DNA from: Alphaproteobacteria bacterium
Lineage (GTDB): Bacteria; Pseudomonadota; Alphaproteobacteria; UBA9219
DNA length: 64,000 nucleotides
Assembly: GCA_028866275.1 (NCBI GenBank)
Contig: JAGWIK010000002.1
Location: 1-64,000, forward strand
Direction: 5' to 3'
Made by a program: the position numbers and the translations under genes. How positions within the stretch are numbered: the first letter of the stretch is position 1; every line of letters starts with the position of its first letter. Below are positions 38,797 to 43,635 of this stretch, piece after piece. The notes beneath the pieces are model-generated. The model searched no databases. It was not told the DNA's origin and saw only the letters and a program-made list of their open reading frames with translations.

Positions 38797-38868
38797 GTTG
38801 GCGAAAATTCGCTTGTTTATCGACATAAGACGCGCGAAAGATATCTCTCCGTCTTTGGAGACATGGAT

Positions 38869-39846
38869 ATGACCAGCGAAAATTTTCCGTCCGTCCGTAT
38901 GCGCCGTTTGCGCAAGACGCCCGCTTTGCGCGATCTGGTGCGCGAAAATACGGTGACGATGAGTGATTTGATTTTGCCGATTTTTGTCGAGGAGGACATC
39001 GACGCGCCGTTGCCGATTTCATCGATGCCGGGCGTGGTGCGTATTCCCGAAAAAGATTTGGCCGCCGAAATCAAGGCTATTCAGGCCGACGGCGTCAAGG
39101 CGGTGATGATGTTCGGCGTGTCGCATCACAAGGACGCGACCGGCAGCGATTCATGGAAAAGCGACGGGTTGTTGTCGCGCATGATCAAGCGCGCCAAGGA
39201 CGCCGCGCCGGATATGGTGGTGATGGCCGATACGTGTTTTTGCGAATATACCGATCACGGCCATTGCGGCGTCGTCGATCACGGCCATGTCGATAATGAC
39301 GCGACGCTGGAAAATCTGGCGATGCAGGCGGTGTGTTCGGCGCGCGCCGGGGCCGATGTCATCGCGCCGTCGGCGATGATGGACGGGCAGATCGCCGTGT
39401 TGCGGCAGGGGCTGGACGAAGCGGGCTTCACCGACACGCCGATCATGGCCTATTCGTCGAAATTCGCGTCGGCTTTTTACGGGCCGTTCCGCGCCGCCGC
39501 CGGATGCGAATTGAAAGGCGACCGCAAAACATACCAGATGGATCCGTTCAACGGGCGCGAGGCGTTGCGCGAGTCTTTGCTGGACGAATCCGAAGGGGCC
39601 GATTTCCTGATGGTCAAGCCGGGCTTGCCCTATCTCGACGTGTTGGCGCGGGTGCGCGAACATACCCTGTTGCCGTTGGCGGTTTATCAGGTCAGCGGCG
39701 AATATGCGATGATCAAATTTGCCGCCGCCGCGGGCGCGCTGGACGAAAAACGCGTGGTGCGCGAAACGCTGGGCGCGTTCAAACGGGCAGGGGCCGATCT
39801 GATTTTATCCTATTTCGCGCGGGATATCGGGCGGGAAGGGTTTTGA
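38869..39846 (+). CDS. hemB: Delta-aminolevulinic acid dehydratase (porphobilinogen synthase)
   Basis: HemB condenses two aminolevulinate molecules in tetrapyrrole synthesis. The active-site lysines lie in [15 protein letters not shown] and [12 protein letters not shown]. The metal site reads [14 protein letters not shown], the three-cysteine zinc type of E. coli HemB rather than the Asp-rich magnesium type known from Bradyrhizobium. The ATG at 38869 has GGAG eight bases upstream; the ATG at 38863 is too close to it. Length is about 325 residues, normal. Confidence 0.95.
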
Positions 39847-39916: not shown

Positions 39917-42331
39917 ATGCGCATAGCACTTATTTGTGGCGGGCCGTCGGCCGAACGCGGGATTTCGTTGAATTCCGCGCGGTCGGCGATGGATCATCTG
40001 ACGCCGCTGGGTTGGGAAATTATCCCGCTTTATTGCGATTTGAACCGGCAATTTTACCGCCTGTCGCCGCCGCAGCTTTATTCCAACACGCCGTCGGATT
40101 TCGACTACAAGCTGGCGCAGACGGCGCAGCCTTTGACGCAATCCGAATTCATTGCCGCCTGCCGCGAAGCGGACATCGCGTTTCCGGCCATTCACGGCGC
40201 GTTCGGCGAGGATGGCGCGTTGCAGGCTTTGCTGGAAGCGCACGACATTCCCTTTGTCGGGTCGCCTGCGCAGGCGTGCCGGTTGATGTTCGACAAGGCC
40301 GTTGCCAACGCCCATATGGCCGAACACGGTTTTGCGACATTGCCGAATTGCCGCGTCGATGCCGCGGAAACGCCAGAGGCGCGGCGGGAAAAAATCGCGG
40401 CGTTTTTTGCCGCCAACCATATCGACAAAGCGGTTGTTAAGCCGTCGGCGGGCGGGTCGAGCCTTGGCGTGGCGTCTGCCGTTACGGCGGACGAAGCCGC
40501 CGCGCGGGCGCAGGATATTTTCGATCAGAAACACGGGGCGCAGGCCTTGATCGAGCCTTATTGCCGCGGACGCGAATTCACCGTCGTGGTGTTGCAGAAC
40601 GGCGAAGGCAAACCGGTCGCGTTGATTCCGACGGAGATCGAGCTGATCGGCGGCGATATTTTTACTTTTCGCCATAAATACCTGCCGACCTGTCATGTCG
40701 AATATCATTGCCCGCCGCGTTTCGAAGACGATGTCATCGACCGCATTCAAAAAGCCGCCGAAGTTTTGTTCAGTTTTTTCGGCATGCGGGATTTTTCACG
40801 GCTCGACGGCTGGCTGCTGGACGACGGGCGCGTGATTTTTTCCGATTTCAATCCCATTTCGGGGATGGAGCAGAACAGTTATCTGTTCATTCAGGGCAGC
40901 CGCATCGGCTTTACCCACGGCGACATGCTGCGTTACATCGTGACGCGCGCGGCCAGCCGTTACGGCATTGAGGCCGAGGTCAACCCCGTTATTAAAAAGC
41001 CGGATGCGCAGAAAGTCCGTGTGCTGTTCGGCGGGACGACGGCGGAACGGCAGGTATCGTTGATGTCGGGCACCAATGTGTGGCTGAAACTGTTGCCGTC
41101 GGCGGATTACGCCCCCGCGCCCTATATTATGGGGCCGGGCCGCAAAGTCTGGCATTTGCCCTACAGTTTTACGTTGAATCATACGGTCGAGGAAATCTGG
41201 CAGCGTTGCGCCGAGGCTGAATCGATCGTGCTGCGGCTGAAGGCGCTGGTTCCCGCATTGCGGCAGCGTTTGGGCGTGTTGCCGCTGCCCGCCAACGCGA
41301 TGGCGATGCCGCGCGTAATGGATTTCGATGCGTTCTGCCGCGAAGCGGTCGATGAAAAGGCGTTTGTTTTTATTGCGCTGCATGGCGGCGAGGGCGAAGA
41401 CGGCACAATACAGGGCGTGTTGAACCATTATGGCTTGGCCTATAACGGGTCGGATGTCGCGGCGTCACGCCTGTGCATGGATAAAAACGCGACGGGCGCG
41501 GTTATTCATGCATTGGGCGACAATTTCCTGACGGCGGCTGATAAAATACTGATTGTGCCTGCGCAGGCCGGCGAGGCGGATAAAGTCTGGCGCGACGCCG
41601 TAGCGAAACTGGGCACGGCGGATATTCTGATCAAGCCGCAGTCGGATGGATGTTCGGCGGGCGTCGTGCGTTTGTCGTCGGCGCGCGAACTGGCGGTTTA
41701 TCTGGGCGCGATTGCGCGCGGCGATGCGGTTTTGCCAGCCGGCACGCTGGAACACCAATCGAACCTGATCGAATTGCCGGTGCGCGATACGGCGTTCATG
41801 CTGGAACCCTTTATCGTCACGGACGCTATTCATATCGACGGGTTGCGATTGCTGCATCAGCCGCGCACGGGGTGGGTGGAATTGACGGTGGGTGTTTTGG
41901 AACAAAACGGCATGGTTCACGCCCTGACGCCCAGCATTACGGTGGCGCAGTCCGCGGTGTTGTCGCTGGAGGAAAAATTTCAGGGCGGCACGGGCGTTAA
42001 TTTGACGCCGCCGCCCGTCGACATTATCGAACCGCGTCATATCGATTTGATTCGCGCTAAAATCGAACAGGCGGCCAAGGCGTTGGGGATTCAGGGCTAT
42101 GCGCGCATCGACATTTTCTTTAACACGCGGAACGCCAAGGTCATGATTATCGAGGCCAACAGCCTGCCCGGGCTGACCGCCTCGACGGTTATCTATCATC
42201 AGGCTTTGGCCGAGCAGCCGCCCATGCCGCCGCAGGCGTTTCTGGCGTATTTGGTCGATGCCGGTCTGGAACGGCGCGCGATTGGGCAAGTTCTTGACCA
42301 TAAAGGCGAAAAGCCGCTTGCCCGCGGGTGA
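39917..42331 (+). CDS. Tandem D-alanine-D-alanine ligase-like protein (two fused ATP-grasp modules)
   Basis: The 804-residue protein contains two complete ligase-like modules. Module 1 (about 1-355) has GGPSAERGISL, IHGAFGEDGALQALL, KPSAGGSSLGV and the end FSDFNPISGME. Module 2 (about 365-800) repeats these as GGTTAERQVSL, LHGGEGEDGTIQGVL, KPQSDGCSAGV and IIEANSLPGLTAS. Canonical Ddl is a single unit of about 310 residues. Module 1 has the less standard metal-binding end (DFNPISG instead of N-x-x-PG). The gene is not in a division and cell-wall cluster, so another peptide-bond substrate is possible. It is 70 bases after hemB and upstream of carA. Confidence 0.8.
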   Translation: MRIALICGGPSAERGISLNSARSAMDHLTPLGWEIIPLYCDLNRQFYRLSPPQLYSNTPSDFDYKLAQTAQPLTQSEFIAACREADIAFPAIHGAFGEDGALQALLEAHDIPFVGSPAQACRLMFDKAVANAHMAEHGFATLPNCRVDAAETPEARREKIAAFFAANHIDKAVVKPSAGGSSLGVASAVTADEAAARAQDIFDQKHGAQALIEPYCRGREFTVVVLQNGEGKPVALIPTEIELIGGDIFTFRHKYLPTCHVEYHCPPRFEDDVIDRIQKAAEVLFSFFGMRDFSRLDGWLLDDGRVIFSDFNPISGMEQNSYLFIQGSRIGFTHGDMLRYIVTRAASRYGIEAEVNPVIKKPDAQKVRVLFGGTTAERQVSLMSGTNVWLKLLPSADYAPAPYIMGPGRKVWHLPYSFTLNHTVEEIWQRCAEAESIVLRLKALVPALRQRLGVLPLPANAMAMPRVMDFDAFCREAVDEKAFVFIALHGGEGEDGTIQGVLNHYGLAYNGSDVAASRLCMDKNATGAVIHALGDNFLTAADKILIVPAQAGEADKVWRDAVAKLGTADILIKPQSDGCSAGVVRLSSARELAVYLGAIARGDAVLPAGTLEHQSNLIELPVRDTAFMLEPFIVTDAIHIDGLRLLHQPRTGWVELTVGVLEQNGMVHALTPSITVAQSAVLSLEEKFQGGTGVNLTPPPVDIIEPRHIDLIRAKIEQAAKALGIQGYARIDIFFNTRNAKVMIIEANSLPGLTASTVIYHQALAEQPPMPPQAFLAYLVDAGLERRAIGQVLDHKGEKPLARG

Positions 42332-42441
42332 TAATTCTGTTGCCATGACGGGATAGAAACGGCATAGTCTGCCTCCGTTTGGGCAACGGAATCCAACAAG
42401 ACGAATCAATGACAACTCCTTCGCAGCAGGAAGGCGCATCC

Positions 42442-43635
42442 ATGCGCGTAAATAAAGAAACGAAACCTGAAAACGCCACGGGCGTTCTGGTATTGGCCGA
42501 CGGATCGGTTTTCTGGGGTCGTGGATTGGGGGCCGAAGGCGTCGGCACCGGCGAATTGTGTTTCAACACCTCGATGACCGGATACCAGGAAATCACCACC
42601 GACCCCAGTTATGCCGGGCAGATCATCACTTTTACCTTTCCGCATATCGGCAATGTCGGCATCAATATGCAGGATGTCGAAACGCAGAAACCATCGGTGC
42701 GCGGCGTCGTGCTGCGCGAGGATATCACCACCCCGTCGAACTGGCGCGCGGCGGGGCATCTGGAAGACTGGCTGGATCGCAGCAACCTGATCGGCATTTC
42801 GGGGCTGGATACGCGCGCGCTCGCCATACGCATTCGCGACACCGGCGCGCCCAACGCGATTATCGCGCATAGCCGCGACGGCAAATTTGACATCGAGGCT
42901 TTGAAAAAGGCCGCGCGCGAATGGCCGGGGCTGGAAGGCATGGATCTGGCCAAGGAAGTGACCTGCGCCGTGCCCTATGACTGGAACGAGGGCGCGTGGA
43001 AATGGTATCCGCAAGGGCACGCGGTTTACGGCAAATCGACCAATGGCCGGTATCATGTCGTCGCGATCGATTACGGCGCAAAATATAACATCCTGCGCTG
43101 CCTTGTGAATGCGGGGTGCCGCGTTACCGTCGTGCCCGCCACGGCGACGGCGGACGAGATTTTTGCCCTGAATCCCGACGGCGTCTTTTTGTCGAACGGC
43201 CCCGGCGATCCTGCCGCCACCGGCGTTTATGCGGTGCCGGTTATTCGGGCCATTCTGGACAAGGGCATTCCGTTGTTCGGCATTTGTCTGGGGCATCAGA
43301 TATTGGCGCTGGCGCTGGGGGCCAAAACCGCCAAGATGCCGCGCGGCCATCGCGGCGCCAATCATCCGGTCAAGGATCTGGCGACGGGCAAGGTCGATAT
43401 CACCAGCCAGAACCACGGTTTCCATGTCTTGCCGGAAACGCTGCCGGAAACGGCGGAAGTCACGCATGTCAGTTTGTTCGACGGGACGAATGAAGGCATC
43501 CGGTTGAAAGACAAACCGGCCTTTTCCATTCAATATCACCCCGAAGCGTCGCCGGGGCCGCATGACAGCCACTATCTGTTCAAAAAATTCGTCGAAATGA
43601 TCGAAAGCCACAAAGCCTCGCGGAAAGCAGCCTGA
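42442..43635 (+). CDS. carA: Carbamoyl-phosphate synthase, small subunit
   Basis: CarA hydrolyses glutamine and channels ammonia to CarB for arginine and pyrimidine synthesis. The N-terminal domain has [21 protein letters not shown] and the amidotransferase domain has GICLGHQ (nucleophilic Cys near residue 282) with [19 protein letters not shown] lies seven bases before the ATG at 42442; an ATG at 42409 would add 11 residues without such a site. The stop overlaps the carB start by one base. Confidence 0.96.

Follow-up and report, generated by a model that had tools for sequence, protein, structure and literature searches.

We found that an 804-residue protein encoded in the window, by which we mean the whole 64,000-nucleotide stretch of DNA analysed here, consists of two D-Ala-D-Ala ligase (Ddl) units joined in one chain, and that no other Ddl-type gene was found in the genome carrying it. 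The tandem is a real, conserved two-headed form of Ddl, which is essential and is targeted by D-cycloserine. The explanation that best accounts for the results, and that we regard as probable in its entirety, is that this protein serves as the organism's sole peptidoglycan D-Ala-D-Ala ligase, in a two-domain form.

A single reading frame with two Ddl units

The gene is a single frame running from ATG to stop at window:39917-42331 (+). The original prediction had described it, from the letters alone, as a fused tandem of two Ddl-like units placed between hemB and carAB, and both parts of this description were borne out by the features that follow, given in window positions.

38863..39846, + strand: hemB, the upstream neighbour of the tandem
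39917..42331, + strand: the tandem Ddl gene, 804 aa, with ATG start and stop (Pfam and NCBIfam matches)
39917..40978, + strand: first Ddl half, aa 1-354 (alignment, structure match and family scores)
40679..40681, + strand: Tyr255 codon, equivalent to DdlB Tyr216, canonical (alignment)
40844..40846, + strand: Asp310 codon, equivalent to DdlB Glu270, an altered metal ligand (alignment)
40979..41011, + strand: short linker between the Ddl halves (comparison of tandem proteins)
41012..42328, + strand: second Ddl half, aa 366-804 (alignment, structure match and family scores)
41651..41653, + strand: Cys579 codon, equivalent to DdlB Ser150 (alignment)
41978..41980, + strand: Phe688 codon, equivalent to DdlB Tyr216 (alignment)
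42439..43635, + strand: carA, the downstream neighbour of the tandem, followed by carB

When the whole protein was searched with Pfam, both Dala_Dala_lig_N (PF01820) and Dala_Dala_lig_C (PF07478) matched two stretches each, far above their cut-offs, and PF01820 matched each half of the protein above cut-off. An alignment of the two halves covers 300 aa, with 24.7% identity and an E value of 5e-13. With the NCBIfam Ddl model TIGR01205 the whole tandem scored 305.2 bits, above the cut-off of 245.65, and since the first half scored 172.8 bits and the second 137.9 bits when taken alone, the cut-off is reached solely by the sum of both halves. In an AlphaFold2 model of medium confidence built from six tandem sequences (pLDDT 68.6, pTM 0.62), residues 1-351 superposed on several Ddl crystal structures (best Z 21.9) and residues 362-801 superposed best on the Coxiella Ddl (Z 28.3), so that in the predicted structure both halves fold as Ddl. 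We infer two Ddl units carried on a short tolerant linker, probably packed as a built-in dimer. An assembly or frame artefact, or chance, was ruled out as the origin of the fusion since complete tandem frames are also present in further assemblies.

In one relative (G006) the linker of the tandem gene holds an in-frame palindrome of 138 bases (L040:7069-7206) with 28-base inverted ends and a predicted fold of -94 kcal/mol, and the frame stays open across it, which is consistent with two units that fold independently and are joined by a tolerant tether. This palindrome resembles a repeat element and lengthens the coding sequence by about 46 codons. The tandem frame of another genome (G433, L076) has an N-terminus that is some 110-120 aa longer, and the additional stretch, which resembles by eye an XRE/HigA-type helix-turn-helix protein, may reflect a fusion or an in-frame upstream gene.

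Active-site residues of the two halves

We aligned the halves of 17 tandem proteins, together with a lone second half (from G104), to 40 single Ddls, among them DdlA and DdlB of E. coli, and widened the tandem set to 20 with two very divergent copies from genomes of 1.0-1.1 Mb and the frame-broken copy of G078. These 20 proteins come from two classes of one phylum. Residues are numbered as in E. coli DdlB, whose sequence was used directly, and the roles of its active-site residues follow the Ddl literature.

In the first half of the window protein the substrate triad E13/S181/Y255 is kept (E15/S150/Y216 in DdlB), and the metal ligand equivalent to Glu270 is replaced by D310, giving the metal set D/D/N; the modified metal-binding end that had been predicted for this half was therefore recovered in the domain-by-domain alignment. 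The second half keeps the metal ligands D732/E746/N748 (D257/E270/N272 in DdlB) and carries Cys579 for Ser150 and Phe688 for Tyr216, giving the triad E/C/F. The prediction had named the first-half change only, and these mirror changes were absent from it.

The two patterns are not particular to the window protein. All of the first halves (17/17) keep E15, S150 and Y216 and have Asp at E270 and Ser at P275, all of the second halves (18/18) keep D257, E270 and N272 and have Cys at S150, Phe at Y216 and Thr at S281, and every single Ddl (40/40) has Ser at S150 and Tyr at Y216. In the wider set the split signature was present in both halves of 20/20 tandems, with the first-half E15 unread in the frame-broken G078 copy. 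The other catalytic positions checked, namely the lysines, the arginine and the remaining metal ligands, were kept in both halves of all 20 tandems; the exceptions among the checked positions were the unread E15 of G078 and a Gly276 to Ala change in four second halves. Around the second-half Phe the loop is unlike that of the 40 single Ddls compared.

Both residue patterns hold without change even among tandems that are only about 45% identical, including those of the genomes of 1.0-1.1 Mb, which argues that both halves would be needed. Since the substrate triad of the first half is complete and its Glu-to-Asp metal change is conservative, this half is expected to make D-Ala-D-Ala, most likely by using ATP to form an acyl phosphate that is attacked by a second D-Ala. 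The second half, with its full metal site, is probably catalytic too, and its Cys and Phe substitutions should alter the handling of the second substrate. The balance leans towards both halves being catalytic. The E270 to D change may weaken catalysis in the first half, and S150C and Y216F may do so in the second.

The strongest of the alternatives, which we nevertheless consider rather unlikely, is that one half is catalytic and the other acts as a non-catalytic sensor of D-Ala or ATP, or as a stabiliser, as in pseudoenzyme pairs. Such a division would suit the observations that the two halves depart from the canonical residues at different sites and that, in 16/16 comparisons with the window protein, conservation is lower in the second half. 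It sits poorly, however, with the retention of the other checked catalytic positions in both halves of the 20 tandems, with the two exceptions given above, and with the fact that genomes as small as 1.0-1.1 Mb retain both halves.

A sole Ddl, its gene position and its spread

The genome that contains the window (G000) has 2.19 Mb in 78 contigs and is rated 100% complete. A search for a separate ddl had been set beforehand, and none was found in it: PF01820 matched only the tandem gene, and the PF07478 matches were the tandem again and other proteins, namely AccC, CarB (in the window) and a PurD-like protein (named by inspection). A separate ddl elsewhere in this genome was therefore rejected, and this absence was one of the two findings that the original prediction had named as jointly counting against it. 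Mur ligases are present.

The same holds more widely. In the order, 29 genomes have one Ddl locus each, which is a tandem in 11, a long single Ddl (frames of 393-458 aa) in 8 and a short single Ddl in 10, one of the latter (G020) being a fragment; of four further genomes, G007 and G017 gave no match, G008 a partial match and G012 a short single Ddl. Outside the order, no further PF01820 gene was found in 6/6 intact tandem genomes or in the frame-broken G078. Taken together the tandem was the only Ddl-type gene in 18/18 tandem genomes checked, a count that leaves G1008 and G1099 aside.

Two genomes are worth recording separately. In G104 (70% complete) a lone second half was seen as a 425-aa frame (L070 / L135), with no first half found in that genome, and G772 (99% complete, from the order of G433) gave no PF01820 match and is possibly devoid of any ordinary Ddl.

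The position of the gene in relatives points in the same direction as its uniqueness. The tandem lies directly after murB in four of the 11 tandem genomes of the order (G015, G019, G023 and G026), in three of which it is followed by ftsQ-ftsA, and it lies near ftsA in two more (G014 and G011). Eight of the 10 short single ddl genes likewise stand immediately behind murB, and in G030 a single ddlB takes the murB-adjacent slot, in the arrangement murG-murC-murB-ddl with ftsA and ftsZ further on. In G000 no ddl follows murG-murC-murB, and all 5 tandem genomes of the window's genus have the tandem near hemB. From the position next to murB or near ftsA in relatives, as against that near hemB in the window's genus, it follows that the tandem fills the ddl position of the cell-wall cluster in those relatives and sits elsewhere in one genus. 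The original prediction had placed the gene away from cell-wall genes, which is correct for G000 but does not extend to 6/11 tandem genomes of the order, where it lies in the division and cell-wall cluster.

Since it is the sole Ddl-type gene and has this murB/ftsA placement in relatives, the tandem is most likely the cell's D-Ala-D-Ala ligase. That it is the sole Ddl and would make D-Ala-D-Ala is highly probable from the sequence data, and being the only Ddl it must be the source of the dipeptide for MurF.

To follow the distribution of the family we used P0001 as the query. Besides the 11/33 genomes of the order, the tandem was present in 6 of the 385 class genomes sampled (the window's genome and the frame-broken G078 among them), in 2/398 from the phylum (including the window's own), in 2/7 genomes in the order of G433 and in 3/369 in the class of G433. 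Other genomes of the same genus, family or order carry single Ddls that are only distantly related. This patchy spread would match gene transfer and replacement, and the tandem is most likely an old, patchily spread two-domain form. First halves form one clade and second halves another, each with support of 100/100. In a tree of 74 rows the second half joins the long single row S_L075, and in a tree of 59 rows both halves come together with a support of 63, both joins being flagged as possible long-branch artefacts; S_L029, which aligned with a gap, was left out of both trees, and S_L075, S_L017 and 13 further rows were left out of the second. The halves may go back to an internal duplication or to two different Ddls. 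Plasmids gave no tandem match, viral contigs gave no match either and motif scans of the viral contigs were also empty, so spread via viruses or plasmids was rejected.

Known systems and alternative readings

The closest known relative is the ordinary Ddl (E. coli DdlA/DdlB; PF01820 plus PF07478), which the tandem resembles in fold, in domains and in nearly all catalytic residues, as well as in the slot after murB in some tandem-bearing relatives. The tandem differs in having two units per chain, with E270 to D in the first half and S150 to C plus Y216 to F in the second, and its identity to the best-matching single Ddls is about 24-29%. The MurC-Ddl fusion (NCBIfam NF011171) also places a Ddl in a two-enzyme chain, but there the partner is MurC and here it is a second Ddl; the first half scored 81.8 bits with this model against a cut-off of 1015. 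In the open-access literature searched, no account of a bacterial Ddl fused to a second Ddl was found.

The plastid DDL of plants (Arabidopsis, Physcomitrella) likewise has two DDL units in one chain; it is eukaryotic, and the likeness to the tandem is one of layout, by description only. Plant second halves may share motifs with the tandem family, which is not used as evidence here. According to PMC9954125, the Arabidopsis DDL is, like its Physcomitrella homologue, a fusion of two putative DDLs found throughout plants, and its status as a functional ligase is yet to be demonstrated. PMC9434261 places the moss Ddl closest to the Fibrobacteres-Chlorobi-Bacteroidetes group, which somewhat disfavours the tandem's phylum as the source of the plant fusion. 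A broader account, which we find doubtful, would bring these strands together: a bacterial family of two-headed Ddls with complementary fixed sites (one head Tyr-type and dipeptide-forming, the other Phe-type and using another second substrate) would have spread by transfer, replacing the ordinary ddl, and would share its fusion with the plant plastid DDL, bacteria such as these being a possible source.

The Phe-type head also underlies a narrower proposal, in which the first half would make D-Ala-D-Ala and the second D-Ala-D-X, where X is a hydroxy acid such as D-lactate or another D-amino acid, leading to mixed precursor ends. D-Ala-D-Lac ligases of the LmDdl2 type have Phe at the Tyr216 position, as does the second half in 20/20 tandems, and LmDdl2 (1ehi) was the second-ranked structural match of this half in the AlphaFold2 model (Z 26.9). 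In lactic acid bacteria the choice of Phe or Tyr here sets depsipeptide versus dipeptide activity, as stated in PMC5996685, and the complementary, fixed nature of the changes in the two halves would also suit two specificities. The tandem second half, however, adds a Cys at S150 and its loop at the Phe differs from that of the single Ddls compared; with the listed curated NCBIfam lactate-ligase and Van-type models either half scored far below the cut-offs; and PF01427, the D-Ala-D-Ala dipeptidase type, does not track the tandem, being present in 9/11 tandem genomes and in 14/18 others. On the present sequence evidence we judge a second product of this kind unlikely, and if it were true it would mean unsuspected variation in Gram-negative wall precursors. 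A glycopeptide-resistance cluster was rejected, since VanX-type genes do not track the tandem.

The suggestion in the original prediction that the halves might work in series to give a tripeptide-like product found no support beyond the tandem layout itself and is very improbable: the neighbours hemB and carA are no biosynthetic cluster, and as the tandem is the only Ddl, and in the cell-wall clusters of relatives stands in for a single ddl, the dipeptide for MurF must come from it.

On the reading that we prefer, a sole D-Ala-D-Ala ligase in two-domain form, several lineages have a fused two-site enzyme instead of the single-domain Ddl, and its halves carry opposite, fixed active-site changes. 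The tandem permits a direct test of why two Ddl sites are tied together, and the family supplies expressible bacterial genes.

Finally, G001, a genome of the window's genus without the tandem, carries a single long Ddl of 414 aa in a gene run at L134:8125-13499, together with an alpha/beta hydrolase, a VanX-type D-Ala-D-Ala dipeptidase, a second alpha/beta hydrolase and a MurF-like ligase. This run looks like a separate ligase/dipeptidase module that acts as the only Ddl there, and a PF01427 gene is also found near the long single Ddl in G004, G025 and G029.
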